A stretch of DNA of 64,000 nucleotides from Streptomyces sp. NBC_01142 (lineage in GTDB: Bacteria; Actinomycetota; Actinomycetes; Streptomycetales; Streptomycetaceae), in NCBI RefSeq assembly GCF_026341125.1, contig NZ_JAPEOR010000007.1, forward strand, positions 11,741 through 75,740, written 5' to 3'. Each line of letters begins with the position of its first letter. Positions within the stretch are counted from its first letter, which is position 1. Below the pieces are notes generated by a model. That model ran no database searches. It was not told the DNA's origin and was given only the letters and a program-made list of their open reading frames with translations. Shown one piece after another: positions 34,180-55,871 of the stretch. The translations under genes were made by a program, and so were the position numbers.

Positions 34180-34203
34180 CCGGACAAAGCTGGGAGAGCA
34201 CTG

Positions 34204-35050: not shown

Positions 35051-35076
35051 TGCCTTGCCACCTCAGTCCCGCACCG

Positions 35077-35952
35077 TCAAGCGCCCAGGTAGGGGCCCAG
35101 GGTTGCTGCGGTGGCTGCGCAGGAGAGGTAGTTCTTGGCGTGGTGGAATCCATAGCTTGTGTGGATGGAGTCGGTGAGGTCCAAGGTGATGCCGGTGAAC
35201 GCGCGGGCGAGGCGTGGGGGGATGGCTACGGGATCCCCGGGGTCAGCGATGTTGACCCAGCGGGTGACACCGGCAGGGCGGGCGCCGAGCGGTGCGGACG
35301 GACCGGTGGGACGGGGGAGGAGCCGGTGAAAAACGGCGTGGGGCAGGGCAAGCGGAGAGCCGAGGGTGAGCAGCAGTTCAACGTCGAGTTCGGGATGCGC
35401 GTGGAGGGCCTCGTAGGTGACAACGGTGCCCAGGGAGTGGGCAATGACCACACGGGGGCGATGCTCAGCTATCCGAGCAGCCACCTCTTCGCGGGCAGCC
35501 ACGCGGACCTGATCGTCATCAGCGCGGAGGTAGGTTGCGACTTCGCGGAAGAACAACCGGACGAACAGCTGGGTGAGCCGGCCATCCAGGCTGAACTTCT
35601 CCGCCACCCATGAGGCGGCATACCGCAGGGGTAGCGTCAAAGCGCCTTGAGAAACGGGTTGGGGAGCGCCCAGTTCGTCTAGCCACGCTGCCATCAATTC
35701 CTTGGCCAGTGGGTCGCTCAGTTCCTCGGCGTCGGCCGCTCCCTGCACGGTGGGGCCGGCGTTGAGGAGCGGAGCGTAGTAGGCGAATTCGAGGTTGAAG
35801 CGATTCGCAGGCAATTGCAGCCCGTTGGCGAGATGCTGCGCCCACAGGGCGCTTTGATTCGTGCGGACTTGATCGGCTGTGGCCTGAGGGACGTGGTTCC
35901 CCACACCGTGGACGGCGACAATGCGGAGGGGCTGGGACGCGGGGCTGTTCAT
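35077..35952 (-). CDS. Alpha/beta hydrolase of the caspase-STAND operon
   Basis: A 291-aa serine hydrolase. The strand-nucleophile motif is AHSLGT (Ser at about 173, a variant of GxSxG), following VVI and preceded by the oxyanion-type opening IVAVHGVGNHVP. The likely acid is in NIADPGDPVA and the catalytic His in YGFHHAKNYL near the C-terminus. This resembles lipase/esterase-like enzymes without a signal peptide, so it is cytoplasmic. Its ATG overlaps the stop of the WD40 gene (ATGA), making it third in the caspase-ATPase, WD40, hydrolase operon. It may be a second effector (lipid or ester cleavage) or a modifier; the substrate cannot be told. Confidence 0.7.
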   Translation of the reverse strand: MNSPASQPLRIVAVHGVGNHVPQATADQVRTNQSALWAQHLANGLQLPANRFNLEFAYYAPLLNAGPTVQGAADAEELSDPLAKELMAAWLDELGAPQPVSQGALTLPLRYAASWVAEKFSLDGRLTQLFVRLFFREVATYLRADDDQVRVAAREEVAARIAEHRPRVVIAHSLGTVVTYEALHAHPELDVELLLTLGSPLALPHAVFHRLLPRPTGPSAPLGARPAGVTRWVNIADPGDPVAIPPRLARAFTGITLDLTDSIHTSYGFHHAKNYLSCAATAATLGPYLGA

Positions 35953-38240
35953 GACTCTCTCCCAAGGACGGGTGCCAAAGTGAGGGCGATGACCTCGTGG
36001 CCCATGCCCACCACGGCAATCCCGTCCGGCGTCATCGTTGCGCAGACTGGCTTGTGGGGAAGGTGCAGAGCCATAAGGCAGGAAGCCGCAGCCAGGTCCC
36101 AGACGCGGAGGGTGTGGTCGTGGCTGCCGGTGATGGCGATGGGTCGGTCGTCGATTTGTGCGGTGGCCACGGCGACTACCGCACCCTTGTGGCCGGTGAG
36201 GGGCTGACTGATTGGCTGGCCGGTGGCCAGGTCCCAGACGCGGAGAGTGTGGTCGTCGCTGCCGGTGATGGCGATGGGCCGGTCGTCGATCTGTGCGGCT
36301 GCTACGGCGCGTACTCCTTCAGCGTGGCCGGTGAGGATGGCGGTGGTGCGGCTGGTGACCAGGTCCCAGACGCGGGCGGTGTGGTCGTGGCTGCCGGTGA
36401 TGGCGATGGGTCGGTCGTCGATTTGTGCGGTGGCCACGGCGACTACCGCACCCTTGTGGCCGGTGAGGGGCTGACTGATTGGCTGGCCGGTGGCCAGGTC
36501 CCAGACGCGGAGAGTGTGGTCGTCGCTGCCGGTGATGGCGATGGGCTGGCCGTCCACCTGTGTGGTTGTCACCGCGCGCACCCAGTCGGTTAGGCCTGTG
36601 CGAAGTTCTCCGATCGGCTCACCGGTGGCAAGCTCCCAGATACGCCCGGAATGATCATCTCCAGCGGTGATGGCGATGGGCTGGCCGTCGATCTGTGCAG
36701 TGGCCACGGCGAGTACCGCCTTGGTGTGGCCGGTGAGGGTGCCGATGGTCTGGCCGCTCGCAAGGTCCCACACGCGCACGGTGTGGTCGTCGCTGCCGGT
36801 GATGGCGATGGGCTGGCCGTCCACGTGCGCGGTCGCCACGGCGCGTACCCGGCTGGTGTGGCTGGGGAGGACGGCGGTGGTTTGCCCAGAGGCCAGATCC
36901 CAGGTTCGAACTGTGCGATCGCTGCTGGCGGTGACAGCGACTGGGTGGCCGTTCACCTGTGTGGTTGCCACCGCATTCACATCGTCGGTATGGCCCGTGA
37001 GGGGATCGCCGATCGGCTGATCTGTCGTGAGGTCCCACAGCACCAAGGTGCGATCGTTGCCGGTGGTGACAGCGACCGGTTCGTCGTCTATCGAAGTGAC
37101 CGCCACCGCCCGGACCCAGTCGGTGTGGCCGGTGAGGGGATCGCCGATCGGCTGACCGGTGGTCAGGTCCCACACGCGGATGGCATGGTCGTTGCTGGTG
37201 GTGATGGCGACCAGACTGCCGTTTACCTGTGCGGTTGCTACTGCGTTCACCCAGCCGTTGTGGCCGGTGAGGGTGACGGTGGGTTGGCCGGTGGTGAGGT
37301 CCCACACGCGCACCGTGTGGTCGTCGCTGCCGGTGACGACGATGGGACGGTCATCCATCTCCGCGGTTGCTACTGCGTTCACCCAGCCGTTGTGGCCGGT
37401 GAGGGTGACGGTGGGTTGGCCGGTGGTGAGGTCCCACACGCGCACCGTGTGGTCGTCGCTGCTGCTGATAGCAACGGGTGTGCCAGCTACTTGTGTGGCT
37501 GCCACGGCACGTACCCAGTCGGTGTGGCCGGTGAGGATGGCGGTGGTGCGACTGGTGGTGAGGTCCCAGACGCGGACGGTGGTGTCGTCGCTGCCGGTGA
37601 TGGCGATGGGGCTGCCGTTCATCTGGGTGGTGGCTACCGCGTTCACCGTATCGGTGTGGCCGGTGAGGATGGCGGTGGTGCGACTGGTGGTGAGGTCCCA
37701 GACGCGGACGGTGGTGTCGTCGCTGCCGGTGATGGCGATGGGGCTGCCGTTCATCTGGGTGGTGGCTACCGCATTCACCGTATCGGTGTGGCCGATGAGG
37801 ACGGCGGTGTTTGATGCCGATACCTGCGAGCCGGTTGCCCACAACGGGCGCCAGCCGGCGCCACGGGCAAGGTCCGCAGCGAGCTCTCGGGCCTGGAAAC
37901 GGGCGGCGTTCAGGATGAGGATGTGCTGGCGCTCCTGGGGAGCAAGCGTACGGAGGAGCGAGTAGGACGTGCGATAGACCGCGGCGCTGAGCCGCTCGCT
38001 TCGGGTAGTTGCCTTGCGAAGAATGGCACTGACGGTGTCGGGCTCCGCATTGATAAGAAAGGCAGGATCTTGGAGCAGTTCTCCAGCCCTGCCGGCATGG
38101 ATGGCGTGTTGGGCCGCATGGCGCAGCACGTATGGGTCGGCTACCTGCCAGGCGCGACTGCCGTCTTCAGCTTTCGGAATGGACTCAAGGAGCCGTTCGT
38201 AAACGGTTGCGGCGAAGGGCTGCGGTGCGGCAGTGCTCAT
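35949..38240 (-). CDS. WD40 sensor subunit, two seven-bladed propellers
   Basis: A 763-aa protein. The first about 150 residues are helical (DPYVLRHAAQHAIHAGRAGE, LLQDPAFLINAEPDTV) and resemble the linker that joins a NACHT/STAND ATPase to its WD40 tail in single-chain proteins. Thirteen clear WD blades of the form LTGHxxxVxAVAxxxxxxxPIAITGSDDxTxRVWDL, plus one degenerate last blade, give fourteen: two propellers. Several blades are nearly identical. The start overlaps the stop of the caspase-ATPase gene (ATGA). It is probably the trigger-sensing half of a split STAND protein, acting in complex with the caspase-like ATPase. Confidence 0.85.
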   Translation of the reverse strand: MSTAAPQPFAATVYERLLESIPKAEDGSRAWQVADPYVLRHAAQHAIHAGRAGELLQDPAFLINAEPDTVSAILRKATTRSERLSAAVYRTSYSLLRTLAPQERQHILILNAARFQARELAADLARGAGWRPLWATGSQVSASNTAVLIGHTDTVNAVATTQMNGSPIAITGSDDTTVRVWDLTTSRTTAILTGHTDTVNAVATTQMNGSPIAITGSDDTTVRVWDLTTSRTTAILTGHTDWVRAVAATQVAGTPVAISSSDDHTVRVWDLTTGQPTVTLTGHNGWVNAVATAEMDDRPIVVTGSDDHTVRVWDLTTGQPTVTLTGHNGWVNAVATAQVNGSLVAITTSNDHAIRVWDLTTGQPIGDPLTGHTDWVRAVAVTSIDDEPVAVTTGNDRTLVLWDLTTDQPIGDPLTGHTDDVNAVATTQVNGHPVAVTASSDRTVRTWDLASGQTTAVLPSHTSRVRAVATAHVDGQPIAITGSDDHTVRVWDLASGQTIGTLTGHTKAVLAVATAQIDGQPIAITAGDDHSGRIWELATGEPIGELRTGLTDWVRAVTTTQVDGQPIAITGSDDHTLRVWDLATGQPISQPLTGHKGAVVAVATAQIDDRPIAITGSHDHTARVWDLVTSRTTAILTGHAEGVRAVAAAQIDDRPIAITGSDDHTLRVWDLATGQPISQPLTGHKGAVVAVATAQIDDRPIAITGSHDHTLRVWDLAAASCLMALHLPHKPVCATMTPDGIAVVGMGHEVIALTLAPVLGRES

Positions 38241-40306
38241 CCGGTTTGCTCCTGCCCTTGGCGGCTGTAGGGTCCGGCCCGAAGCCGTTCTGCGAGTCCT
38301 TCGTGGAAGAGCCGGTACAAAGTGGTGCCGTCGACGTCGATGTCGCGGCGCAGGTAGAAGCGGGCTTGCTCAAGGGCTTCGCGGAGGCTGTCGGTCGGTA
38401 GGGGGCCGCCACTGGATTCACGTTGCATGAAGGCGGGGGCAACGTGGGCGAGGGCTCGTTCCGGTATACCGCGGCCTTCCGCGTAGGCGAGGGCCGCCAG
38501 GACAGGGCGTAGGTGTGGTTGGTCACCGCGGCCGACGAGATCAAGTTCGAGGAGCTCCGCCAGGTCCACAGGGGCTGCAAGCCCGAGTTCTCGGGCGAGT
38601 GCCGGGTTGCACTCGGTGGGCAGGGAGAGAACGTGACGCACGTAGAGGCCTGCAGCCAGGAACTCTCCCCACGCCAGCGGCTCGGCCTCACCGGCAGCAT
38701 CCTGGGATGGAGCGTTGACACCTGTCAGACGTGTTGCGATGCCTTCAGCAAGAGCCCTTGCGGCCTCTCCAGCCTCCGCTGCTGCGTAGGAGGTGTCGAT
38801 CGCAAGCAGGGCCCCCACGTACTCCTGCAGCGACTCGTAGAGGTCGTGTGGCTGGACATGGTTGAGGTCGAGCCAGCCTCCGGAGGCGTCAGCAAACTGT
38901 GTCAGGGTGGCGAAGCGCCGATCCGAGCGGGTTCCCACAAGCAGCCGTATCCGGGGAGAGTCCTTGAGGGCCTCACGGACCAGCGGTAGCAACAGGGCTT
39001 GAGTAACGTCCTCGGGTCTTTCAGCCTCATCGAGGGCATCAATCACCACGGTGTAGGGGGCGTCAGAAGCCGATTGCGCGAGCTCGAGCAGACTTTGCGC
39101 GTCCCAGCCGTCAGCGGGGCGGTCCTTCTCGGCTGCTCCCATCTGGCGGGCGAGGGAGTCGCTGACCTGCGTAAGGTCACGGCGTCGGGCATGGACCACA
39201 GCAAGCCGCTCGTTACGGCCCGGCTTGGCCGGCAGGGAGTGCCACAGATTTTGCGTGGCGCCGCGCAAGGTTGGATGGGCCGCGCAGACAAGAACACCCA
39301 AAAGCGCCGATTTGCCCACTCCGGGTTTGCCGGTCAGGAGACGAAAACCGGACCCTTGGCCGTTGAACCACGCGGTCAACGCCCGGACTTCCGCGTCTCT
39401 TCCGCGGAAATACCCCTGACCTGAGTCGCCGCGGTCCAAAGGTTCCGCACTGGCGCCACGAAGCATGAAGTGCCGCGCGTCGAAGGCCTCGTCGAGCATG
39501 GAGGCGATGCCAGCATCGACTTCCGGCAACAGGCTCTCCTGCCTGGTATAGCCGGGATTGGGGAAAAACGGCAGGTGATCGATGCGAGCCGTGAACGGCA
39601 CGCGACTGACGTCCACCTGCTGAGCGAAGCCCTCCGTTTCGCTGAGCTTCGCCACTTCTCGGGCGATCTCGTGCGCGACAGTCGGCAGCGGAATGTGCTG
39701 GTATGACGAGTCCACTGCCAAAGTGCCGTCGAGGTAGTGCCCTAGAACCATGGCCGTGGCGCGGCTCAGCCGGTAGCCGAATGCTTTGTCTTCGCGCCCG
39801 GAGGCGGCGATCACCCAGGCACGGCGCTCACCGACCTGCATCTGCTGCTGCCAAGACAGTGTCGCAGCGGCACCGGAGTTGCACAGATCGAGAATGAACA
39901 GCGTCCGGGGCCGCGGCTTGTCGGGGTGTGATTCGATCAGGCTGATCCACGAGGAGACCGGGTCGTCGAGGTTTGTTCCATCGCTCGCTACGACGTGTAG
40001 TTCCCGTTCGCCGGTCTCGGCCAGCCTGCCGTGCGCAACAATGTGAACCACGAGCGCCTGCGTGCTGGTGGACCGGACAGCATTGCGGACTTTCTCACTA
40101 AGGTCTGTGGTCTCATCGGGCCGCCACGTCTCGGTGTAGCCGAACCTGACGAGCGCCTCGGACACCGACGCGGCGCGTGCGGGCGCCTGGTCCAGCGGAT
40201 CCAGTGCACCCAGCGCAGGTACGCCATCCTCGCGCTGTGCAGTCACGGACAAGCCCACAGACAGCGCTACCCGTTCCGCGCTGTCGCGGCCAACACCGTT
40301 GTCCAT
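38237..40306 (-). CDS. Caspase-like peptidase fused to STAND ATPase
   Basis: A 689-aa protein. The N-terminal caspase/metacaspase-type domain has the catalytic His in HIVAHGRL (92) and Cys in FILDLCNSG (142). A STAND/NACHT-type ATPase follows, with P-loop GKPGVGKS (326-333) and Walker B VVIDALDEAE (about 420-429). A helical region without WD repeats ends the chain. ATG 40306 is supported by AAGGA six bases upstream; the open frame to 40705 has no such site. In related proteins, sensing by a WD40 tail leads to oligomerisation and caspase activation. Here the WD40 part is the next gene, overlapping by ATGA. Probable role: abortive infection or programmed death. Confidence 0.82.
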   Translation of the reverse strand: MDNGVGRDSAERVALSVGLSVTAQREDGVPALGALDPLDQAPARAASVSEALVRFGYTETWRPDETTDLSEKVRNAVRSTSTQALVVHIVAHGRLAETGERELHVVASDGTNLDDPVSSWISLIESHPDKPRPRTLFILDLCNSGAAATLSWQQQMQVGERRAWVIAASGREDKAFGYRLSRATAMVLGHYLDGTLAVDSSYQHIPLPTVAHEIAREVAKLSETEGFAQQVDVSRVPFTARIDHLPFFPNPGYTRQESLLPEVDAGIASMLDEAFDARHFMLRGASAEPLDRGDSGQGYFRGRDAEVRALTAWFNGQGSGFRLLTGKPGVGKSALLGVLVCAAHPTLRGATQNLWHSLPAKPGRNERLAVVHARRRDLTQVSDSLARQMGAAEKDRPADGWDAQSLLELAQSASDAPYTVVIDALDEAERPEDVTQALLLPLVREALKDSPRIRLLVGTRSDRRFATLTQFADASGGWLDLNHVQPHDLYESLQEYVGALLAIDTSYAAAEAGEAARALAEGIATRLTGVNAPSQDAAGEAEPLAWGEFLAAGLYVRHVLSLPTECNPALARELGLAAPVDLAELLELDLVGRGDQPHLRPVLAALAYAEGRGIPERALAHVAPAFMQRESSGGPLPTDSLREALEQARFYLRRDIDVDGTTLYRLFHEGLAERLRAGPYSRQGQEQTG

Positions 40307-40590
40307 GCACCGTCCTTCTAGCTCTCCGACTTCGAGGGTATTCATCGGCCGTCTCATCGGCAGGCCTAACCAGAAATGCCCTCGGCACTGCATGATCACA
40401 GATAAGGCGAGGCCCTGGGCCAGTTCCCATCTGGTGAGGCACCCTGGGTGTCTGTCATTCGCTGATCCGGGACCGGTCATGGCCAAGTCACGGTCTTTGC
40501 GGCCTGCTTCGCCTGGCTGGTCCTGCTCTCCTGCGGGCAGGTAGAAGGAGCCATGAGATGCAAAGACAGGGATAAGGCCCGGGATCTCCC

Positions 40591-41274
40591 TCAAGCAGAG
40601 GTCTGTTGCCCCCCTGATGCTGTGAGGATCCCGGTCTCGCGGAGAGAGTCGAGATGTCGGGCGATGGCACTGGCGTGTGCGGGGTCGCGCAGGAGGATGC
40701 CGCACTCAAGGTTCTTCTCGAAGGCGTAGCTGGTGAGGTTGGCGCTGCCGATGAGGGCTGTTTGACGGTCCACCACGATGATCTTGGCGTGTAGTGAGGC
40801 GCCGCTTTCGCGGTACTGGACCGGCCAGCTCAGCCGAGTGGCGGGCAGGTCGAAGAAGCCGGTGCGCCCTTGGAACTTGGGGTTGTCCGCCTGCTGCTCC
40901 AGCAGGAGCGTCACCTCGACACCGCGGGCGGCAGCTGCGGTGAGAGCGGTACTGAGCGATTTTGGAGGGTAGCTGGCGTAGCTGACCAGCAGGATCTCCC
41001 TCTTCGCGGAGTCGACTAGTTCGCCGACGACGGCGGAGGTCAGACGGGAGGTCTGGATGCTGGAGGCCGGCCCTGTCCACACGACATCCACGCGGTGCCC
41101 AACTAGCTGTCTACGTCTGGCCTGCGCGGCGCCGAGCAGCAGGCCTGCGGCGTAGGGGCCTTCGGTGTCGCCGGGCAGGTAGGAGCGGAGCCTGCGGCAG
41201 GCAGCGCGGACGGCTATACCGGCGACCTGAGCCTCCAGCGCCCGCAGACCCCTTCGACCCCGTCCGGCAGGCAT
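40591..41274 (-). CDS. drmC: DISARM DrmC, phospholipase-D-like protein (frameshifted start)
   Basis: DrmC is the PLD-family member of the DISARM core. One HKD-type motif is clear, HAKIIVVDRQTALIGSANLT (near residue 160), with the downstream FEKNLECGILLRD typical of the family. The frame from 41274 gives 227 aa, but it probably lacks its natural N-terminus. An ATG at 41356 overlaps the drmB stop (ATGA) and encodes M-T-P-P-G-S-L-E-D-L-A-A-E-L-A-E-R-L, then runs out of frame. Deleting one base from the CCCC run at 41249-41252 joins it to R-A-L-E-A-Q-V-A-G in this frame. So either drmC carries a real one-base insertion, or it is a base-calling error, or it starts internally. The intergenic 285 bases to its left carry the promoter side of the caspase operon. 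Confidence 0.75.
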   Translation of the reverse strand: MPAGRGRRGLRALEAQVAGIAVRAACRRLRSYLPGDTEGPYAAGLLLGAAQARRRQLVGHRVDVVWTGPASSIQTSRLTSAVVGELVDSAKREILLVSYASYPPKSLSTALTAAAARGVEVTLLLEQQADNPKFQGRTGFFDLPATRLSWPVQYRESGASLHAKIIVVDRQTALIGSANLTSYAFEKNLECGILLRDPAHASAIARHLDSLRETGILTASGGQQTSA

Positions 41275-41352
41275 GCGCGAGCTGCCTGGCGTCGTCGTAC
41301 GGGAGCCGCTCGGCGAGTTCGGCAGCGAGGTCCTCGAGTGATCCGGGTGGTG

Positions 41353-43212
41353 TCATAGCTGGAAGGCCAGGCCATCACGGGTGATGTCGACGAGGAACGC
41401 CCGATCCAGCCACCTGTTGTTGGTCTCGCAGCTGGTTTCCGACGCGAACAGGCAGGCATGGCAGGCTGCAGAGTGCAGCGTGTCGGATGGGAACTCGGGG
41501 ACGTGTTCGGCGCAGAGCGGGTCGCTGGAGCAGCGGCTGGCGTCCTCGAATGCCTGGTCCAGCAGTCGCTTGAGGTAGCGGGCGCTGCCGAGGGCGACCA
41601 AGCCGCCGAGGGTGCCTTCGCTGTCGCTGGCGGCGGTGGAGAGCAGGACGCCGGCGGCCGGCTTGGTTGGGCGCCCGATGTACAGCCGTTCGCGGATGCT
41701 GGATGAGGAGTAGCCGCATTCCAGAGCGACCTGGCGCATCAGCAGGTGGCTGAAGGTGTGCAGGAGGACGAACCGGGCGATGGGGAATCCGGGCACGTAC
41801 GGCTGGTCCCGGTTCTGGCACCACCGCTGGTGGGCGGCTTGCAAGGCGATGAGCCGGGGGTGGTTGGCGACCTTGCCTACCCAGCGGGACACAGCGTCCT
41901 CACGCAGCTGCAGGAAGATCCCTTCGCCGCGCTGCTCGACTGCTGGGACCCACTGGGTGGCTCCGCGCGAGAGGGAGACGCGGTTGTGGGGGATGAGGTC
42001 GCGGCGGTCAGGGGCGGCGATGCGGGTGAACGCGACGAGGGCCTGTACCTCGCGGAGCCGGGTGACCTGGACGACCTGCTCAAGCAAGTCGTCGTAGCCG
42101 ACGGGGGTGGCGGTCGGGGTGGCTCGGAAGTCGGCGTCCTGCCGCGTGGTGGTGGGCTTGGCGAGCAGTCGCCACTCGTCCTCCAGCAGGTCGCCGGAGG
42201 TTTCTTCGGGCTGCGGGCCACCGGCCGCGCGGATCTTCTCGATAAGGGCCCACAGTTCGTCGGACGGCACGGAACGCAGGTTCCTCAGGTCGTTCATGCC
42301 ATCGACCATCATCTGCATGAACTCCTGGGAAGGCGCCGGGCCGAAGACCTTCCAGTGGGCCCTGACCAGGTCCTCCACGGACTCCGCTTGCGGCAGATGC
42401 AGGGCGCTCGCCGTAACGCTGAACCACAGGTTGGACGCGCCGAGGACCATCAGGCGCAAGGGGGAGCCGCACGCCTCAAACCGCTGCTGGTGGGGGTGGC
42501 GTCCGCGGCAGAGAGGGAGCTTTTCGTGCCCGGTCTTGCCGGCGGCCTCTTGGAGGCTGCGCGAGGCACCGCACTCGGCGCACCTCACGGTCACCTGCGG
42601 CCCGAGCGTGCTGGCACTGTCGAGCATGACGAGTTTGGCGCCACCGCACGGCTGGGTGGCATTGACGTGGACAAACTCGACGTATGGGAAGTCGTCAAGG
42701 TGCCCGTTGTCGCAGGCGACGATGAAGCGGGCCGGCACGCAGGCGCGCTTGTTGACCTCGCGAGTGGTCGTCTGCCTCTGGCACTGGCTGTGCACCCACT
42801 TGGCGAGGTCGGGCCGACGCCCGTAGCGGTGCACGAGATCGAACTGGCCGGGCGGGTCGAGCGGACCGAGGCGGTGGCAGCGAGGGCAGCGCACCCACCC
42901 GGGGAACGGGGTCACAGGTACCCCGACCCGGGTGTAGGGGTCGTCGGTTTCGGACGGGTCCCAGGGGGCCTTGCGCAGTGCCCGGACCTGCTGACCGAGG
43001 ACCCGCTGGACCTCGGCCAGCAGCCGTGGCTCCTGGATAGTCTCCTGCCGCTCCGGGCTCCAGGCGTCCAGACTGCGCACGATGACGCTCATGGTGGGCA
43101 GGTCGACAATCGAGCCGACACCGGCGGTGGTGACCAGGTGACTGGGGCGAACCTGGCCGATCCGGCTGGGATTACGCCGTCCGGTCGGGACGGCGCCAGC
43201 ATTCAGTTTCAC
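41353..43212 (-). CDS. drmB: DISARM DrmB, DUF1998-domain protein
   Basis: A 619-aa protein that pairs with the DrmA helicase in DISARM. The DUF1998 signature is present at the C-terminal part: HTFSHLLMRQVALECGYSSS (near residue 487), LSTAASDSEGTLGGLV, then the cysteine set CSSDPLC...ACHACLFASETSC. Earlier Cys pairs (VRCPRCHRLG, VRCAECGASR) suggest more zinc sites. GTG 43212 is chosen because it overlaps the drmA stop as GTGA and has GGGAGG six bases before it; the frame to 43248 lacks a ribosome site. Its stop overlaps the natural ATG of drmC. Order and overlaps are those of a tight operon. Confidence 0.85.
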   Translation of the reverse strand: MKLNAGAVPTGRRNPSRIGQVRPSHLVTTAGVGSIVDLPTMSVIVRSLDAWSPERQETIQEPRLLAEVQRVLGQQVRALRKAPWDPSETDDPYTRVGVPVTPFPGWVRCPRCHRLGPLDPPGQFDLVHRYGRRPDLAKWVHSQCQRQTTTREVNKRACVPARFIVACDNGHLDDFPYVEFVHVNATQPCGGAKLVMLDSASTLGPQVTVRCAECGASRSLQEAAGKTGHEKLPLCRGRHPHQQRFEACGSPLRLMVLGASNLWFSVTASALHLPQAESVEDLVRAHWKVFGPAPSQEFMQMMVDGMNDLRNLRSVPSDELWALIEKIRAAGGPQPEETSGDLLEDEWRLLAKPTTTRQDADFRATPTATPVGYDDLLEQVVQVTRLREVQALVAFTRIAAPDRRDLIPHNRVSLSRGATQWVPAVEQRGEGIFLQLREDAVSRWVGKVANHPRLIALQAAHQRWCQNRDQPYVPGFPIARFVLLHTFSHLLMRQVALECGYSSSSIRERLYIGRPTKPAAGVLLSTAASDSEGTLGGLVALGSARYLKRLLDQAFEDASRCSSDPLCAEHVPEFPSDTLHSAACHACLFASETSCETNNRWLDRAFLVDITRDGLAFQL

Positions 43213-46200
43213 GTGGAGCCTCCCTTGGGCGGGCGGTCGTAGTGCCAAGCAGGCGCGGAATCGAGACTGCCGTCCCGCCGGTCAAGCTGCAGGACGATTT
43301 CCGGTTCGACCTCGCGCAGGCTCATCGGCGCGGACCACAGGTCCCAGCCCTCCTCGTCGGGGCTGCGCAGCAGCCCGGAGACGTCGGCGGCTTCCTCGTA
43401 GCCGAGGCGCCCGGCCTTGAGGGCGGTGCGCTTCTTGGCCCAGGAGTCGAGCCGGTACTGTGCGGCCTGGCGGACAGTGGCGGCCTGCGGGGCGTCGTGC
43501 AGCACCTTGGCGGCGCGCTGTTCCAGGGCGTTGAGAAGTTCGGTTACCGCAGTCCCGGAGAGCGGAACGTTGTTTGCTGCGATGTTCGGCAGGGATGCGT
43601 ACGAGGAGTGGCGGACGGCGGCGGCCAGTATGCCGCTGAGCCCGCGGTCCAGGGCTCGGTCGCTGAACGGCGTGGTCGTCAGGCCTTCGACGCGCATGCC
43701 GAAGGTGGCGTGGTCGTAGCCGAAGGACTCGTAGTGGGCGAGGTCCCGGGGGCGGCTCCACTGGTAGAGGGTGACGACCAGGCCGGGCCGCCGGGGATCG
43801 CGTCCCACCCGGGAGGTCGCCTGGATGTACTCGGCGCTGTTCTTGGGCTGTCCGGTGACGACCATCAGGCCGAGGCGGGGTACGTCGACGCCGACCTGCA
43901 GCATGCTGGTGGCGAGCAGCACGTCGAGCGGCTGGGCGCGGCCGGCGAGTTTGGCGCGGGCCTCGGCGGCGTTGCGGCGGAACTCCTCCAGTGCGTCGGA
44001 GGAGTCGAAGCGCGGGTCGAAGGTCCGCTCCAGCTCGGCGAGGGTGCTGCCGATGCGGCTGCTGGGCATGCGGCTGGTCAGTTCGGCGACGTTGGGGCGT
44101 CGGCGGCGGGTGCGGACCTGTCGGCTCGCGAGGCGGTCGGCGACGTCGTCGTCCACCAGCCTCTTCATGCCGGCGAGTTCGCGGGTGGAGGTGAAGTAGT
44201 CGACCACCGTGAGGTAGGGGTCGGCGGCGGCGCCGTAGCGGTCGAACAGTGTCTGACCGTGCTCCAGCAGGGCGGTGACGAGGCGGATCTCGATCGACTT
44301 CAGCCGCTCGCCGGTCGCGCACACGCCCCGGTAGCGGCGGCTCGGCGTGTCCGGCCCTGGGGTCACCGAACGAGAGAAGAACGTGTCCCCCGCATCCAGC
44401 AGCTGAGGCGGGAAGATGGTCAGGCCGCGCGCGAAGACCTGCTCGACCTGGTCCCGGGCCCGGCGCACCGTCGCGGTGGAGGCAACCAGCACGGGCCGCA
44501 CCGGCACACCGCCGACCGGGCGACTGCACAACCGGTCCACCACCGTCTCGTACAGGCCGACCAGGCTGCCCAACGCGTCACTGATCAGGTGCAGCTCGTC
44601 CTGGATCACCAGGTCTGGAGGCCGTAGCCGCATCGCGGGCTGCGGCGAGGCTGCGGGCAGCCCGCCCGCAGCCGGGTGCCTACTCTTGCAGAACTCCCGG
44701 AACGTCGGCGTGCGCCATCCGTGCCGCTCGCACTTGCTGTCCACGAGGCCGAACAGCGGCGCCACCGCGTCCTTCCACGGCAGCTGGGCGAGCTTGTCAA
44801 CAGTACTGATCACCAGCGACGGGGTCAGCCGGTAGATCTCCTCATCGACCGTCAGCACCGGCAGGCCTTCGCCGTTCGAGCCCCGTTCGGTGTAAAGGCA
44901 GTCGCCCTCCGGGTCACTGCAGAACACCCGGACCCGGCGCTTAAGATCGTCGGTCTTCAGACTGGTGCCGGTCAGCTTCGACCCGCACCAGGGGCAGGCG
45001 ACGAGCTGCAGCGGGCCGCCCAGCGCATTCTCGCGGTCCTGGGCATCCTCGACTTGCCGCTTGGCCTCCCCATAGCTGTTCGGCGTGACAGCGCTGCCCA
45101 CCCACAGCCCGACACGGAACGGCGTCGTGCCCCAGCGACCATCCCCGGCCGCCAGACGTTCCTGCCGCAGCCACTCACACGCACACACCAGGGCCGCCGC
45201 CCGCTGAAACTGCTGAGCCGTCAGCAGCCTCAGGGTGTAGCGCATCAGGACGGCGACGCCGTTCGTGCCGTCACGCGCCTCATCACCTTGCCCCACGATG
45301 CCCTGGAGACGACGGATGGCGAAGGTGTACGCAGTCAGCCCCAGGTACGCCTCGGTCTTGCCACCGCCGGTGGGGAAGAACAGCAACTGCACCTCGCCGT
45401 CGTCCACCGAGCGGTACGCATCCCGGTGCCCCGGATCGGTCAGCCCCGGCAGGCACAACAGGACAAACGCCAACTGGAACGGGCGCCAGCTGCGGTTGGC
45501 CGGCACGTCCTTCTCGCGCAGCAACCCGCCCAGCGACAGCTCCGGCGCGTTCAGTCGGGCGCGCACCACTTCGCCGCGCACACGCTGCAACGCCATCGCC
45601 TGGTTGGCGAAACGGAATGCCTCCCGCGCGATGCCATCGTCCCGCAACAGATCGATCGCGCGATCCAACCGGTCCGCTATTTCCTCCGCTCGGGTAAACG
45701 CCGGCCGGGCCGCAGCGGCATACCCCCCAATCTCCGGATCGTCATCGATGCGGCGCTCCTGCTCCGCCAGCCACGACCGATACCCGGTGACCAGCGGCCG
45801 CAGCGCACGAACCAGATCATCACGGGCCAGCTCAGCACTCCCCAGCCGGGCCATGTCCAGCACCAGACCCGGCATACCGGAGGTGTCACCCGGCACAGTG
45901 AGGCGCACATCCGCAGCAGGGAAACACGTCGTACGCAGCCGCCAAGCCCTCACCTCGCCCGAATGCACCTCCGCGTCCACCGCACACTGCCGTCCGTGGG
46001 CATAGCTTCGCTGCGCACGGTGCAGCAGAGCGAGGTGTAGCCGCTCGGGGTCGCTGCTGGAGGGGCGATCGCCGAGCTGTGGATCGTTGTGGCCGAGGAA
46101 GACGGAGACGGTGCCGTCCACTGCGGTGACGGTCAGATGGACCTGGTAGAGACGCGCGGTGTCCCCCATCGAGGCGGGCAGCCTCTGGGAGTTGACCAGG

Positions 46201-46787
46201 GAGACGTCCACGATCCGGCGCGCGCCTCGGTGGCGCACCACCGTCCGGAGCATCACTTCGGGCTGGTCGGCATCCGGGGCGACGGGTTCGAGCTCGGCGT
46301 CGGCGTCGAGGGGGACGGTGACCGTCCCGCCCGCCGGGCGGCGCTTCCAGACCCTGCGGGGCTTGCCCTGCTCGGTCAGGTGCACCTCGGACGGCGCCCG
46401 TTCGTAGCGGCCCCACTCGGCGACCACCTTGACGGCGTCGACATCGGAGGGCACCGCGAAGGACAGCCCGAGAGCAGAGGCCGCCATCGAACCGGACCGG
46501 ACGGCGGCAGGCGCCTCGGGGGCGTCGTCATCGTCCACCGACTCCACGACCTCACGGTCTACCAGGCTTGGATCGTCCTGGCCCCGGGCGTCCTCCGAAT
46601 CTTCGGAGGACGCATCGCGGGTCACCAGCCGGCCCAGCACATACCGCTCGGCCGGGCTGCTGCCCGGCGGCAGCTCCTCCTCCGGGCCGTCCCATGGCCC
46701 GTGCAGGTCACGCTCGAGAAGGCTCTCCAGCTCTTCACGGATCTCGTACGAAGTCCGCTCTGCAGCCGGGCCCGTGCCTGAGGTCAC
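43209..46787 (-). CDS. drmA: DISARM DrmA, helicase-domain protein
   Basis: The large core helicase of DISARM, 1192 aa. The long N-terminal domain is acidic. The helicase core has Walker A LFFPTGGGKTEAYLG (about 473), a zinc knuckle-like CPWCG, the DEAH-type box VIQDELHLISD (about 730), VASTATVRRA (motif III) and SMLQVGVDVPRLGLMVVTGQ followed by ATSRVGRD (motifs V and VI). With DrmB it would sense incoming DNA. GTG 46787 has GGAGGAG seven bases upstream. The gene follows drmMI after 64 bases, so the operon is continuous. Motifs are intact. Confidence 0.88.
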   Translation of the reverse strand: MTSGTGPAAERTSYEIREELESLLERDLHGPWDGPEEELPPGSSPAERYVLGRLVTRDASSEDSEDARGQDDPSLVDREVVESVDDDDAPEAPAAVRSGSMAASALGLSFAVPSDVDAVKVVAEWGRYERAPSEVHLTEQGKPRRVWKRRPAGGTVTVPLDADAELEPVAPDADQPEVMLRTVVRHRGARRIVDVSLVNSQRLPASMGDTARLYQVHLTVTAVDGTVSVFLGHNDPQLGDRPSSSDPERLHLALLHRAQRSYAHGRQCAVDAEVHSGEVRAWRLRTTCFPAADVRLTVPGDTSGMPGLVLDMARLGSAELARDDLVRALRPLVTGYRSWLAEQERRIDDDPEIGGYAAAARPAFTRAEEIADRLDRAIDLLRDDGIAREAFRFANQAMALQRVRGEVVRARLNAPELSLGGLLREKDVPANRSWRPFQLAFVLLCLPGLTDPGHRDAYRSVDDGEVQLLFFPTGGGKTEAYLGLTAYTFAIRRLQGIVGQGDEARDGTNGVAVLMRYTLRLLTAQQFQRAAALVCACEWLRQERLAAGDGRWGTTPFRVGLWVGSAVTPNSYGEAKRQVEDAQDRENALGGPLQLVACPWCGSKLTGTSLKTDDLKRRVRVFCSDPEGDCLYTERGSNGEGLPVLTVDEEIYRLTPSLVISTVDKLAQLPWKDAVAPLFGLVDSKCERHGWRTPTFREFCKSRHPAAGGLPAASPQPAMRLRPPDLVIQDELHLISDALGSLVGLYETVVDRLCSRPVGGVPVRPVLVASTATVRRARDQVEQVFARGLTIFPPQLLDAGDTFFSRSVTPGPDTPSRRYRGVCATGERLKSIEIRLVTALLEHGQTLFDRYGAAADPYLTVVDYFTSTRELAGMKRLVDDDVADRLASRQVRTRRRRPNVAELTSRMPSSRIGSTLAELERTFDPRFDSSDALEEFRRNAAEARAKLAGRAQPLDVLLATSMLQVGVDVPRLGLMVVTGQPKNSAEYIQATSRVGRDPRRPGLVVTLYQWSRPRDLAHYESFGYDHATFGMRVEGLTTTPFSDRALDRGLSGILAAAVRHSSYASLPNIAANNVPLSGTAVTELLNALEQRAAKVLHDAPQAATVRQAAQYRLDSWAKKRTALKAGRLGYEEAADVSGLLRSPDEEGWDLWSAPMSLREVEPEIVLQLDRRDGSLDSAPAWHYDRPPKGGST

Positions 46788-46851: not shown

Positions 46852-49800
46852 TCACGCCCCACCCTCCAGCGCCGCGCGCCGGTGGTTCTCCTCCAACAGC
46901 AGGTCCAGCAAATCGAATCGGGCCTCCTTGCTGACCGTCCAGCGCATGCCGATCTTCGTTGGGTGATGCCCGATCCCCAGGTCCAGATCCGACCAGCCAT
47001 ACGCCGCCAGCACCGCCGCATCGATCTCGGCATGCAGCTCCCGCAGAGCCTGCACCTGCGGGTCGCGGTCGTCGGGGTCATGGACGTGGTTGTACGTCGT
47101 CGTCAGACCCCAACCACGGCCCAGCATCAGCTCACGACGCTCCGCGTCGAGCCGCTGGCCAAGGCGCTCCATCTCCGGAGTGGAGTCGGGACGGGGGAGG
47201 GTCAGGAAGACGTCAGAGGGGGTATAGCGGACGTCGCGCCGAATTGTGGAGCCATAGCGGATGGCCCAGATGGTGTGGGCACTCGACGACAAGAAAGCCA
47301 GACTCGCGAAGTCCTCCAGCGCAAAGACTACGGTGGCATCGGAAAAGACCATGTCAGTCTCGACCCGCACGGGTAGCACTGCGTTGCTATGCCTCGACAG
47401 CGCCAACACGTGGTGGCGCTTCCGAATCTCCTCGTACAGTTCCGGTGCCCGTTCGGCAAAGATCCACCAGCGCTCCCGGCGTGCTGCCCGCTTGTTGCGA
47501 TCGCGTTCGGGTTTGACGAGGCGATGGACGATGTCGATCGCATCCGGGTACTGCTCGGCCCGTTCGAGGGGCCAGTCGCGGAAGTTGATGACCCATCTGC
47601 TGGCTGAGCAGTCAGGCCGCTGGTTGAGGTCCTTGCCGATGACGAAGGGAGCGAGTACCTCGGCATTGCGTGGATCTTGGCGGATCAGCTCGTCCGCCTG
47701 CCGGATTTCGAGCGTGAACCCCAAGCCGAGGACGTACGACCCGATAAACGCGCGCCTGTCGTTCTCTGCGAGCCGTCGGGGACGCCCGCTCACGCGGCCG
47801 ACGGGTTCCAAATCGCCGCCGATCGCTGGGACCTCCTCGCCGTCCAGCCACGGAAGGCTCGTGCCAGACAGCGGGGCTTGGCTGCCCCAGATGTTGACGA
47901 TCTCCAGGTTGGCGCTGCTGCTCGGCCAGGGGTGGCTTCTCTGCCCTCGCCGGAGCGTCATCCCCCTTTCTGTGGCCTGGGTGAGTCCGACCTCCAAGGT
48001 GTCACCTTGCACGAGGGTGTTGGTGGTGATGTAGCCGAGCTGGCCGCGCGCGGCGAGCAAGCGCTGCGCCCGTAGGACGAAGCGGGCTGCGAGGTCCGCG
48101 CTGCCCTTTGTGCCACCGCCGTCCCAGCGCTGGAGCCAGGCCAGGTACTCCTTGCCCATACTCCCGGTAATTTTCTGGCCGCCCAGAAACGGCGGGTTGC
48201 CGATCACCGCATCGAACCCCGGGGTCGGTGTGTCGGCGAAGACCTCCGGGAACGCGAGTGGCCAGTGCAACGGTTCGCGCGGGCTGGTGGCCTCGGGCCG
48301 TCCGGCCTGCAGATCTGCGGCCACGGTTTTCGCCAAAGCTTCCTGGTCCCTGTCCTGGCTCAGCGCCCAGGACAGTTGCAGGAACCGCTTGTCGACTTCC
48401 TTCGACCGGGCAGCTGCTGCGAGCAGGCCGGTGGCCGTGACCGCGTCGGCGACCAGCCGCAACTGGCTGCTGTTTTCTTCCGCCTCGGCAAGGAGCCGGA
48501 CCTTGTGCTCAACGTCGCGGATGGTGACGACGGGCGCGGCGGTGATCCGCCGCCGCAGGTCGGCGGCGCGCTGGAGCAGTGGCCGGACCCCTGCGGTCAG
48601 GTCCAGGACCATCCCCTGGTGCAGCTTTCGTCCCGCGACGGGGTCAACGTGCAGCGCCTCCAGCTGGTCGGTGCTTCCGAGCCCGAGGAGGCTGTCGCCC
48701 GCTTTGAGCCGGTCGTCGAGGAACCCGAAGGGCCGTTCCCGGTCCATGGTGACCAGCCACAGCGACAGTTTCGCCATTTCGACAGCAAGTGGGTTTATGT
48801 CGACGCCGTACAGGCAGTGCTCGGCGATCAGGCGGCGTGCCTCGACCTGTACCTGTTCGATTTCGGCGTCCGAGGACAGCTTGTGCCCGGCCCGTCGGCG
48901 TACGGCCTCCAGTGCGTCGCGGCGTCCTTCGGTTTCCCAAGCTTCGACGAGCCTGTCGGCGAGGTAGCGGCAGGCGGCGGTGAGGAAGGCCCCGGAACCC
49001 ATGGCGATGTCGGCGACCTTGAGTTCCAGGATCGCGGAGGAGGGCCGGAGCTGCCAGGTGCTGCGGTCGGCGGTCTCCAGCGGGCCGGGCCGGTAGACGA
49101 GGGGTTCGAGGGTGTTGCCGGCCACGTCCTCGGCCAGGGAGCGGGGGGTGTAGTGGGTTCCGCTGGCCGCGCGCCTGGTGCTCGGTGCGACGAAGCGTCC
49201 GCCGGGCAAGGTAACGGCCGGCAGGCCGCGCTCGTCGTAGCGCAGGACGGCGGCGAACGGGTTGATCGCTTCGGCGAGTTCGAGATCACCGCCCACAGCG
49301 CGCAGCACGGCTTGCCGTCGCTCCTGTTCCCCGGGGGCGGCGAGGGCGGTCACGAGGCGGGCTTTCGTCCAGCCGGTGCGGGCTGACGCCCACTCTGCGA
49401 GGCTCGGGCCGCGGTCGAGTCCGGCGAGGATGCGTGTTGCGTCGGTCAGTGCGACCTCGCTGTCGACCTTGGTGGCGCGGGGCCACTTCGGGGGGCGGAT
49501 CATGCCGAGCGTGACGTCCTCGGCGGTGCGGACCTCGAGTTCGAGTAGGCCCTCGTAGACGTAGCCGATCTGTTCGACATCGAGGGCGCGGAAGCTCAGC
49601 CGGCGGCGCTCTCCGCCAGCCTCGACGTACTGGACGGCGCGGAGCATCCGCAGCACGGTGCGGTCGTCGACGGCGGGTACCCGGCTGCCGGGGTCAGTCA
49701 CGGTGTCGCGGCGTCCCTCCAGCCAGGGGAAGCGGTCGGGGTGGAACATGCTGCCGCCGTAGGCGGGCATGCGCAGGTCCTCGTGGGCGACGCCTTGGTG

Positions 49801-50958
49801 GACGGCGCGAGCGACAGCGAGCAGGCGGTGCCAGGCGCCGGTGCGGTGTTCCAGGGCCTGCTCGCCCAGCAGGCTGGCCTGGGATTCGAGCTGGTCGACG
49901 AGGCGGCTGACGCTGTAGGCGGAGACGTAGAGGGCATCGTCGCTGGGCAGCAGGCGACGTTCCTCGGCGAAGAGCAGGAAAATTACCCGCATCATCACGG
50001 TGACGACGCCAGCGTAGAACTCGTCGTCATCCACGTCGGCGAGCAGGGTCCGTCCGCCGTCGGCATCAAGGCGGTCGATGGTGCCAACGAGCATCTCGAC
50101 GGCGTCGCGGACCTGTCGGCCGAGGGTTTCGGTCACCTCCTCCTGCCGCAGCAGGCTCTCTTGGAGCAGTGCGGGCAGGGTGTCGGCCTGAGCGACGGCG
50201 AGGAAGCGGGAGCGCTGCAGCAGGGCGACGAAGGCGCGCAGGGTGTCGGGTTCTGTGCTCCACAGGCTGGCGTCCCACACGGCACAGCCGGTGGTGCCGC
50301 CGCGGGGGGCCCATACAAGGGCCCACCAGCGGCCGTCGGTGGTCAGGCCGATGGGTACGTCCCGGGCCCGCAGAAGAACCGCGAGGCGTTCCACCGCGCT
50401 CGCGGTCCAGCCGCCCTGAGCGGTGCGGGTGAGCGGGTGGAGGCCCCACGGGGACAGCATGCCGAACAGCCGCCAGGGCCCCTGGGCCTCCGTCTCCTCT
50501 GCGCTGCTGTCCTCTTCGTCCTCGTCATCCGCCGAGTTGGGGTCACCGTCCGGGTCGGCGGCGGCACCGTCCTCGTCGTTCTCGACGAAGAATGCGAAGT
50601 CCGCGCGCACGGTGAGGCCGTGCTCCTGGATCGGTTCGGCGAGGGAGTCGGGGATGGCGTTGCCCTCGACAAGGCGGTGCTGCCAGTCCAGGACGTCGTG
50701 CAGGACGGTCGTCACCAGTCGGCGCCGGTCGGCGCCAGCGTTCTCCAGGACCTCCTCGATGGCCAGCCGCAGCTGTGCCCGGTCGCTCGCGGGGACGACC
50801 GGGAGCCCGTTGGGGAAGACCCGGTGCACTACGGGAAGGGTCAGGAACGGGCCCGAGGTCTGCAGGAGTTCGAGCCAGGAGTGGCGGCGGCGGATATCTT
50901 CGTTGATGCCGCCCGGGCGGCGGCCGGCGCCTCGGGTGTCAGGGCGTGCGGCGCTCAT
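46852..50958 (-). CDS. drmMI: DISARM DrmMI, N6-adenine DNA methyltransferase
   Basis: The class 1 DISARM methylase, 1368 aa, marking host DNA as self. The S-adenosylmethionine site is VADIAMGSGAFLTAACRYLA (near residue 650). The catalytic motif is VIGNPPFLGG (near residue 920), the NPPF form of adenine-N6 methylases. Long flanking regions (about 600 aa before, 440 after, with the target-recognition part) are as in other large PglX/Eco57I-like enzymes. ATG 50958 overlaps the drmD stop (ATGA). Acidic low-complexity sequence lies near residues 127-155. No truncation is seen. Confidence 0.88.
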   Translation of the reverse strand: MSAARPDTRGAGRRPGGINEDIRRRHSWLELLQTSGPFLTLPVVHRVFPNGLPVVPASDRAQLRLAIEEVLENAGADRRRLVTTVLHDVLDWQHRLVEGNAIPDSLAEPIQEHGLTVRADFAFFVENDEDGAAADPDGDPNSADDEDEEDSSAEETEAQGPWRLFGMLSPWGLHPLTRTAQGGWTASAVERLAVLLRARDVPIGLTTDGRWWALVWAPRGGTTGCAVWDASLWSTEPDTLRAFVALLQRSRFLAVAQADTLPALLQESLLRQEEVTETLGRQVRDAVEMLVGTIDRLDADGGRTLLADVDDDEFYAGVVTVMMRVIFLLFAEERRLLPSDDALYVSAYSVSRLVDQLESQASLLGEQALEHRTGAWHRLLAVARAVHQGVAHEDLRMPAYGGSMFHPDRFPWLEGRRDTVTDPGSRVPAVDDRTVLRMLRAVQYVEAGGERRRLSFRALDVEQIGYVYEGLLELEVRTAEDVTLGMIRPPKWPRATKVDSEVALTDATRILAGLDRGPSLAEWASARTGWTKARLVTALAAPGEQERRQAVLRAVGGDLELAEAINPFAAVLRYDERGLPAVTLPGGRFVAPSTRRAASGTHYTPRSLAEDVAGNTLEPLVYRPGPLETADRSTWQLRPSSAILELKVADIAMGSGAFLTAACRYLADRLVEAWETEGRRDALEAVRRRAGHKLSSDAEIEQVQVEARRLIAEHCLYGVDINPLAVEMAKLSLWLVTMDRERPFGFLDDRLKAGDSLLGLGSTDQLEALHVDPVAGRKLHQGMVLDLTAGVRPLLQRAADLRRRITAAPVVTIRDVEHKVRLLAEAEENSSQLRLVADAVTATGLLAAAARSKEVDKRFLQLSWALSQDRDQEALAKTVAADLQAGRPEATSPREPLHWPLAFPEVFADTPTPGFDAVIGNPPFLGGQKITGSMGKEYLAWLQRWDGGGTKGSADLAARFVLRAQRLLAARGQLGYITTNTLVQGDTLEVGLTQATERGMTLRRGQRSHPWPSSSANLEIVNIWGSQAPLSGTSLPWLDGEEVPAIGGDLEPVGRVSGRPRRLAENDRRAFIGSYVLGLGFTLEIRQADELIRQDPRNAEVLAPFVIGKDLNQRPDCSASRWVINFRDWPLERAEQYPDAIDIVHRLVKPERDRNKRAARRERWWIFAERAPELYEEIRKRHHVLALSRHSNAVLPVRVETDMVFSDATVVFALEDFASLAFLSSSAHTIWAIRYGSTIRRDVRYTPSDVFLTLPRPDSTPEMERLGQRLDAERRELMLGRGWGLTTTYNHVHDPDDRDPQVQALRELHAEIDAAVLAAYGWSDLDLGIGHHPTKIGMRWTVSKEARFDLLDLLLEENHRRAALEGGA

Positions 50959-53900: not shown

Positions 53901-54149
53901 CACCGCGGGGAGCTGGGTTGCGGGAACGACCTCGCGGCCCGGTTCGACTTCCCACACCAGGGTGAGCTCTTCCCCCAGGTTGTCATCGCTGACGCTGTTC
54001 AGCGTCACAAGCGTGCGTCCAGGCGGCGTCGTGGCCGCCAACTGGTCCTCGGGCTGACGGCTGCGGTCCAGCTGTGACACCACCCACTGCTGCCCACGCA
54101 CCCGGACCAACTGACCGACCTCGAGCGCGTCCGGCGATGACATCACCAC
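50955..54149 (-). CDS. drmD: DISARM DrmD, SNF2-family helicase
   Basis: The SNF2-like ATPase that defines class 1 DISARM, about 1064 aa. Motif I is DDVGLGKTIEAG (near residue 150), motif II IVDEAHHCAPP (near 261), SATPHNGYSESW (motif III), LLATDTASEGIDLQ (V) and LEQRIGRVDRRGQ (VI). The C-terminal part has a coiled coil. First gene of the operon. The open frame to 54446 is not credible at its start. GTG 54149 lies seven bases after GGGGA; ATG 54143 two codons later is the other choice. The 320 bases upstream hold the probable operon promoter but no motif I can name. Confidence 0.88.
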   Translation of the reverse strand: MVMSSPDALEVGQLVRVRGQQWVVSQLDRSRQPEDQLAATTPPGRTLVTLNSVSDDNLGEELTLVWEVEPGREVVPATQLPAVTEAGWDDPQRLGAFLDAVRWGTVASADTRTLQSPFRSGITIEEYQLEPVARALTMPRVNLLIADDVGLGKTIEAGLIVQELLLRHRARRVLVVCPAPLTLKWREEMAEKFGLDFVILDAAALRELRRTHGLEANPFTVHPRAIISLPWLRTPRVQRLLDEVLTPETRHPGFFDLLIVDEAHHCAPPAPPRGRGYAVDSLQTRAVRRLGEHSQHRLFLSATPHNGYSESWWALLAMLDPQRFTPGTEPDEQMLEQVMVRRLKSNVLDAEGEPVFPARTHRAVEVTYTADERRIHALLEAYADRRRRTPGATAVRANDLVTLLLKKRLFSSPAAFARTLATHAASTNKAGGSGLDAELPAWLDEALGWDDEIEDVPEESPEASAAGSASVQGSLDEHLHDLVSRAAEVGAGADPQDADLLEEMLAWAERHGEHSDSKANALVAELEAICRPGGEWNDKRVIVFTEYRDTQRWLSELLNSRGLGGERTGLLYGGMDTAKREHLKAAFQADPRRDKVRILLATDTASEGIDLQRHCHRVIHYDVPFNPNRLEQRIGRVDRRGQRHEVEVVHFVGAGWQQAQVNSYEADLEFLSRVAVKVATERKDLGSVNPVLAHAIESRMLGRPVLVDPLAVAPSPSAVALKGEHDLREQARRLRLQLEQSVERLHIGPHNVRRVVDTALDLADQPPLADRGNGEVAPPVLHAGWERTVLGLADPLSGVMRPLSFDQAVVGDRDDVVLAHLEHPLVAQSVRLLRSAVWGGRTSLNRVAAVSAVLPEQARIDGLLVAVFSRLVVVGRDGTRLHEEVVLTGREIPASGRSRRLELEQPRYADLRDAVERALEPDACRPAPPEARSTLAGQWEMLMPRLAEDVRVRAAERLASMSRNLQSRAADETRRIHAIFDQLRITLTDALEGPEPTQLSLDDLEVEERRQLDHNRRAWEDRLASLDEERERELTATEARYGDVRELVFPFAVALIVPEVEEAR

Positions 54150-54473
54150 AGATTTGTCCCCTTCTTGGCAGAGCCCGATCCTATGGTCTGGGCTTGCTCG
54201 GCTGCCCCTTGCCTGCCGGATCAGTACGGCTGCACCACGACGTCCTGCCCCCCGCGGAGCGGGACGGCGGGGCATCCGCCGGTGTGCGTGTGGTGGACGA
54301 TGCGCGGTGGTATACCGCACAGGAGCAGCACGTTCCAAAGCGGCTGCAGACAGGGGAAACGCTGACGCTCGGTAGCCCGGGACGGCTACCCTCCGTTGTA
54401 CCCCAGGCGGCCCACGATGCTTCCTTGCAGCCGCGCTCCGCCGCACGGCCGCCGAGAGGGGACCGGGTTCCGG

Positions 54474-55831: not shown

Positions 55832-55871
55832 GCGGCCTCCGAGTTCGTTCGGCGGGTCTGCTCACCGTGGT

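Follow-up and report, generated by a model that had tools for sequence, protein, structure and literature searches.

A conserved caspase-NTPase, WD40 and alpha/beta hydrolase gene trio beside DISARM in Streptomyces sp. NBC_01142: a candidate bacterial death module

Whether a caspase joined to a nucleotide-dependent switch, a WD40 protein on a chain of its own and a lipase-like hydrolase make up one bacterial death module is the question raised by a locus of Streptomyces sp. NBC_01142. The locus (35077..40306) lies on the minus strand of the window, i.e. the whole stretch of 64,000 nucleotides that was analysed (positions 11,741 to 75,740 of NZ_JAPEOR010000007.1), which is part of a 75.7-kb contig in a 10.1-Mb genome of 15 contigs. 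The analysis revealed that the parts of this trio are of known kinds, and that its split three-gene form is conserved and, as a combination, was not found described in the open-access literature searched. A possible reading, at somewhat less than an even chance, is that the trio is an NLR-like bacterial death module of three genes, in which the caspase, gated by the WD40 protein, activates a hydrolase that damages membranes.

All three genes are intact open reading frames (ORFs). Gene 1 (38237..40306, 689 aa) encodes a caspase-fold domain followed by a STAND-type NTPase; gene 2 (35949..38240, 763 aa) encodes an N-terminal linker (about residues 1–140) and 13–14 WD40 repeats, which probably form two propellers; and gene 3 (35077..35952, 291 aa) encodes an alpha/beta hydrolase nearest to lipases. 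Stop and start codons overlap by 4 bases, ATGA, between genes 1 and 2 (38237..38240), as they also do in Streptomyces dysideae RV15 (neighbourhood L005), and again between genes 2 and 3 (35949..35952). This layout confirms what the original prediction had read, namely caspase and ATPase in one gene and the WD40 part with its N-terminal linker in the next, joined by an ATGA overlap. AAGGACGG is present a short way 5' of the gene 1 start at 40306, and the same start Met is used in several close homologues (e.g. P0002, P0003, P0009). Between the stop of the preceding gene, drmC, and gene 1 there is a gap of 284 bases (40307..40590), of which the last 100 bases or so ahead of gene 1 align with a similar stretch in S. 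dysideae. A promoter scan, which is weakly informative here, gave no sigma-70-type match in 34500-41300. The closest named relatives of genes 1 and 3 are from Streptomyces (82% and 88%, respectively).

The N-terminal domain of the gene 1 protein (about residues 9–255, 39542..40282) matched the caspase fold over residues 9–249. In the predicted model, the fold begins at about residue 9 behind a disordered tail, and a low-confidence linker (residues 257–272) follows the domain. The catalytic pair, His92 (40031-40033) and Cys142 (39881-39883), was retained in 114/114 and 118/118 ungapped rows, respectively, among 120 gene 1 homologues. Peptidase_C14 of Pfam did not match gene 1 at E 0.1 or in the search of its own genome, and no Pfam family matched ahead of residue 300, while the EACC1-associated caspase model NF047832 of NCBIfam reached 34.2 bits against a cut-off of 140. 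Peptidase_C14 did match the related hydrolase-linked proteins at L105, L106, L114 and L115, and picked up four other caspases in the window's own genome (G000). Since the window caspase was missed while these four were found, its subfamily appears to escape the usual model. Based on the fold, the His-Cys pair and the weak NF047832 match, the N terminus of gene 1 is assigned as a predicted caspase.

The NTPase region (about residues 277–683, 38258..39478), recognised by Pfam, alignment and fold, carries the Walker A motif GKPGVGKS, starting at residue 326, and the Walker B motif VVIDALDE. AAA_16 scored 37.4 bits (cut-off 32.6), NPHP3_N was also above its cut-off, and NACHT was below. Among 66 aligned proteins, G326, G329, K332, S333, D423, D426 and E427 were invariant. 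Foldseek matched the region to ZAR1-type plant resistosomes, CED-4, NLRP3 and Avs3; Cdc6/ORC AAA+ proteins scored as high as these NLR-type matches. The P-loop, the Walker B motif and the NLR-like fold of the model together characterise the region as a predicted STAND NTPase.

In the gene 2 protein, PF00400 matched 13 stretches with 269.8 bits, and the gene contains a tandem array with a period of 132 bases and 12.8 copies (36091-37800). WD40 repeats 1 and 2 are identical across 102 bases and 98% identical across 132, whereas their best matches among the S. dysideae repeats are only 89 and 91% identical. This likeness points to a recent duplication or gene conversion within the presumed sensor gene.

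Pfam matches to the gene 3 protein were all below cut-off, and its identity as an alpha/beta hydrolase rests on the predicted model, which has the fold with a complete Ser-Asp-His triad. The predicted catalytic residues are Ser173, within an AHSLG motif, Asp240 (Asp237) and His270; S173, D240 and H270 were unchanged in 52/52 rows, distant relatives among them. H92 and C142 of gene 1 lie at the positions given by the original prediction, which had also named the P-loop and the hydrolase Ser. The closest folds were those of lysosomal phospholipase A2 and bacterial lipases. A flexible insert occupies about residues 61–125, in which the alignment showed no caspase cut site holding across distant relatives, which puts activation by binding on a par with activation by cleavage.

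The original prediction regarded genes 1 and 2 as the two halves of a single-chain STAND protein. Many of the more distant sequences are fused, and in one such relative (L073) a single ORF of about 1484 aa matched residues 12–687 of the caspase-NTPase and then residues 13–755 of the WD40 protein; the border sits exactly between the NTPase and the WD40 part, and the linker of gene 2 continues the NTPase without a break. These observations support the proposed division. A frameshift error, with fusion in all relatives, had been named as evidence that would speak against it, and a tree of 110 gene 1 homologues gave a different picture: 46/58 rows labelled as split (protein length up to 770 aa) fell into one branch of 49 rows, which is the branch of the window. 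The tree was made by a quick method with SH-aLRT only (support of the window branch 90, not starred), 10 fragmentary proteins of 120 being left out and ten rows having no label. The same branch contains one fused row (P0081, 913 aa) and two unlabelled ones (P0039, 916 aa; P0054, 831 aa), which contradict a clean split clade. The remaining 12 split rows, some of which may be gene-call or contig-end artefacts, were scattered across the tree, with 8 label changes compared with a shuffled mean of 32.2; because of this scatter, the receptor seems to have been divided more than once. Moreover, a shared motif just before the stop codon terminates most of the close homologues of gene 1 that are full-length, and, going by source names, genes 1 and 3 carry separate, near-neighbour locus tags in seven genomes (EDD27_1500/1498 of Nonomuraea polychroma and the series ACFQ7J, ACIBO9, QQY66, ACFWV1, ABZ402 and ACLPUO). 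Sequence comparison therefore indicates that the split is real and inherited, and a sequencing error or pseudogene was rejected on the grounds of the 46 split rows, the common end motif, the ATGA of S. dysideae and the locus tags.

Hydrolase matches were found in 183/392 genomes of the same genus (E 1e-3). At 37 distinct places, taken non-randomly from the upper and middle parts of the match list, a caspase/NTPase gene adjoined the hydrolase in 34 cases (15/18 in a first set and 19/19 in a second; G445 was taken twice, and G535 C1 and C2 are near-identical copies). Three places of the second set (L106, L115 and L117) had no caspase-profile match and were counted by the NTPase profile; among the Pfam matches listed, Peptidase_C14 appeared in two of them (L106 and L115). 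The hydrolase stood without an adjoining caspase/NTPase gene at L087, L091 (identical to L124) and L092. All pairs except one (33/34) were on one strand, with the hydrolase downstream in 20 and upstream in 13. Among the plasmids of the collection, a caspase-NTPase gene lay within about 6 kb in no fewer than 11 of the 15 records that held the hydrolase, as judged from the 20 caspase records, of 26 in all, that were listed with positions; in S. chartreusis (L067), no caspase was found within 16 kb of a full-length hydrolase. Caspase and hydrolase distances over 38 loci were correlated with r = 0.94, the highest value in 1000 permutations being 0.19, which is due in part to the common ancestry of whole loci and indicates that the pair travels together. 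The hydrolase is thus a steady partner of the caspase/NTPase gene, as the original prediction had supposed in calling it coupled.

Related pairs also occur in Rhodococcus, in Arthrobacter and, among cyanobacteria, in Leptolyngbya. On the plasmid of Leptolyngbya boryana (L070, 9467-17007), a hydrolase of the same type is followed by a 2216-aa caspase protein with C14, TPR and PIN-associated domains and no WD40; with TPR in place of WD40, the caspase and the hydrolase appear as the constant elements and the sensor part as the changing one. In Sinorhizobium fredii, the gene ahead of the hydrolase is annotated 'caspase family protein', to which Pfam assigned no family, and it was not counted as confirmed. 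Any match at E 1e-3 occurred in 105/394 genomes of the family, and few genomes have the near split form. Some relatives are located on plasmids and near transposases or integrases; the viral contigs scanned contained no relative, and a scan of the genome contigs found a single locus. Solved structures, searched by sequence, yielded no useful hit, the best (E 0.81 and 0.016) being unrelated proteins.

The gene structure, the predicted folds, the conservation of the active sites and of the split, the steady pairing and the co-inheritance are observed here. From this architecture we infer sensing, assembly, caspase activation, the caspase-to-hydrolase order, the lipid substrate and phage defence, and the working of the module may be as described below. 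The WD40 double propeller, a chain of its own whose translation would be coupled to that of gene 1 by the ATGA overlap, would cap the NTPase and hold it closed. When the propellers recognise an invader signal, the NTPase would be freed, bind nucleotide and assemble, and the assembly would draw the attached caspase domains together so that the caspase becomes active. The active caspase may then turn on the hydrolase, either by cutting its insert or by binding it, and the lipase-like hydrolase would attack membrane lipids, by which the infected cell is stopped or killed. The module would act independently of DISARM and would here form a second line behind it. A protease that unlocks a partner has its nearest tested precedents in the nucleases of Hachiman, AVAST and Canu, the caspase of Canu switching on a partner pro-nuclease (PMC12799240), and phospholipases are described as alternative death effectors that replace gasdermins in some CARD-NLR variants (PMC13236601). 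These and the other reports cited here are cited from excerpts. An immune role of the trio is likely from its context.

The original prediction went further in calling the arrangement a candidate for an undescribed immune system. The combination stands, in that no description of the caspase-NTPase/WD40/hydrolase trio or of its link with DISARM was found in the open-access literature searched, which is weak evidence of absence as subscription papers lie mostly outside it; the parts do not, as they are already in print (PMC3501461, PMC7159879). Metacaspase-NACHT-WD40 proteins, called widely distributed by Asplund-Samuelsson et al. (2012, PMC3501461), have a caspase, a STAND-class NTPase and WD40 in the same order; they are single chains, whereas two genes are used here, and Pfam C14 misses the window caspase. 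In the excerpted text of that report, hydrolases are mentioned among operon neighbours in general and not as this partner. According to Kaur et al. (2020, PMC7159879), the caspase-superfamily domain of VMAP systems invariably comes with an adjoining alpha/beta-hydrolase gene. The core of those ternary systems, however, consists of VMAP, MoxR and vWA, in contrast to the caspase-fused NTPase and WD40 of the present locus, and Pfam, run on the three genes of the trio and the five of DISARM, found neither MoxR nor vWA among them, giving no sign of VMAP membership.

The EACC1-caspase two-gene systems of the same report resemble gene 1 in that an N-terminal caspase is fused to varied C-terminal domains, STAND NTPases included, and in that they occur in actinobacteria. 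They differ in that the 5' neighbour here is drmC with no EACC1 gene; together with the NF047832 score below cut-off, this rules out EACC1 membership. Canu likewise places a caspase beside a partner enzyme with a possibly gated active site; its partner is a nuclease of the metallo-beta-lactamase fold, and CanA has an Ig-like domain (PMC12799240), unlike the alpha/beta hydrolase and the NTPase/WD40 receptor found here, and Canu membership was rejected on the identity of the partner. The CARD-NLR and LypABC systems share a protease, an NLR-type NTPase and a death effector with the trio, and differ in having CARD, a trypsin-like protease and TPR instead of caspase and WD40 (PMC13236601). The model leaves no room for a CARD ahead of the caspase fold, and Pfam detected no trypsin family in the trio (25 of 43 families being listed for the WD40 gene); membership of the CARD-NLR gasdermin systems was rejected.

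A complete class 1 DISARM system lies directly upstream of the trio on the same strand, comprising drmD (an SNF2-type helicase, 50955..54446), drmMI (a methyltransferase, 46852..50958), drmA (a helicase, 43209..46787), drmB (41353..43248) and drmC (40591..41274). PADLOC recognised all five, with 1263.1 bits from residue 105 for drmD, 1631.6 bits for drmMI and 875.5 bits for drmA; drmB and drmC also matched NF038324 (668.8 bits, cut-off 240) and NF038319 (174.5 bits, cut-off 133), respectively. The coordinates of drmD are those of the longest ORF, and its real start is probably internal. Beyond drmD, PADLOC detected a CBASS-type locus (55223-60637, minus strand) with an oligonucleotide cyclase (56297-57685, 533 bits) and a capP-like M78 peptidase (57492-59198, 46 bits). 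The small protein encoded at 55223-55831, in which a likely membrane helix was read from the sequence, could be its effector, and Pfam gave no match for 58529-59548 and 59579-60637. This defence-island setting with DISARM and CBASS, which the original prediction did not mention, was counted in favour of the death-module reading.

Several further features of the window were observed. On the plus strand (31236-34563), convergent to the trio and facing it, lies another caspase-clan system. It consists of a TPR gene at 31236-31988, a gene for a CHAT peptidase at 31981-34179 (PF12770, 59 bits) and, at 34204-34563, an ORF of 119 aa that has a single likely membrane helix and no family match. Two similar helicases (61028-63520, minus strand, with ResIII and helicase-associated (HA) domains; 7566-10331, plus strand) gave restriction-enzyme and PbeA matches in PADLOC. 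Close to where the defence island ends on its low-coordinate side, there is an IS-type DDE transposase (29684-30451, minus strand).

If the trio were an accessory of DISARM, with DISARM sensing or marking DNA and the trio serving as an abortive-infection arm under shared regulation, the common strand, the 284-base gap and the situation in S. dysideae would be explained. In that strain, DISARM and the trio have the same order, drmD adjoining as well, and the two stretches are collinear for approximately 15 kb, with a DNA identity of 82-84%, up to a point some 14 bases beyond the stop codon of the hydrolase. A second, separate stretch shared with S. dysideae lies beyond the trio (window about 28001-28824, L005 17937-18760; ca. 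830 bases, 79% identical) and in the window overlaps the ORF at 27365-28852. However, among 46 other neighbourhoods, which represent 44 distinct places (L066 and L076 look like one plasmid place by their same record length, and L091 equals L124), S. dysideae was the only one to contain DISARM core genes, one further neighbourhood having a DrmD-like helicase of 29% identity. These 46 include L067, L087, L091/L124 and L092, which have no caspase gene, and some, such as L082 with 7 kb, are short enough to hide a distant DISARM. The full core is present in the nearest DISARM systems found on plasmids, those of Nocardia NBC_01377 (DrmB 67%) and Rhodococcus ruber Y14 (64%), and no trio follows drmC in either. 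In the Y14 plasmid (L104, 1631-19247), TIR-domain and HIT-family genes stand ahead of the window-like class 1 DISARM and other genes come after it, and different modules thus border this DISARM type. Among the 392 same-genus genomes, DrmB was found in 135 (1e-20) and the caspase in 26 (1e-60); the window genome belongs to both sets, and among the matches listed none of the 11 others with both had them close together (the DrmB place of G033 lies outside these matches). A DISARM accessory is therefore quite improbable. As no linkage was found beyond the window and S. dysideae, the trio was rejected as a DISARM component; we conclude that it is a module independent of DISARM, and that the two adjoining systems were passed on together, as a single island, within a small lineage.

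The other alternatives concern what the trio does. The main rival to the death-module reading is that the hydrolase acts as a brake, or on the sensor side, editing or removing an acyl or peptide signal and so silencing the caspase, which would itself be the final killer by its action on host proteins. Two results weigh against a caspase that unlocks a lipase: relatives of the hydrolase carry the source name 'serine peptidase', and no cut site is conserved. A brake is, on the other hand, hard to match with the folds of lysosomal phospholipase A2 and lipases and with the reports on Hachiman, AVAST and Canu, in which a protease switches on its partner (PMC12799240), and we regard it as unlikely. 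The stricter form of the death-module reading, an apoptosome-like pathway in which the two-chain WD40-gated receptor activates the caspase, the caspase cleaves and so unlocks a phospholipase dedicated to it, by which the cell dissolves its own membrane, the free-standing WD40 chain, its repeats being copied within the gene, is an exchangeable sensor and the whole serves as a fallback when DISARM fails, is distinctly unlikely. A developmental or housekeeping role, i.e. programmed cell death during differentiation of mycelial bacteria instead of phage defence, would agree with the report that caspase-using VMAP and EACC1 systems occur mostly in multicellular organisms (Kaur et al. 2020, PMC7159879); the same authors interpret such systems as conflict systems, and the patchy spread, the rarity of the near split form, the relatives on plasmids and near transposases or integrases and the position of the window copy among DISARM and CBASS make this role improbable. 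That a gene which is normally fused only looks split through faulty sequencing or annotation, as the frequent fusion in distant relatives might suggest, has next to no chance given the 46 distinct split rows in the window's branch, the shared end motif, the ATGA overlap in S. dysideae and the separate locus tags.

The link between caspase and hydrolase was already noted for VMAP systems in 2020 (PMC7159879), and the present locus offers a compact case of three genes, one of them for a separate sensor chain, that makes the caspase-to-hydrolase question directly testable. Since this caspase subfamily is missed by the standard Pfam model, surveys based on Pfam would undercount bacterial caspases. 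If the lipase step holds true, bacteria would possess another route of caspase-dependent killing besides pores and nucleases.

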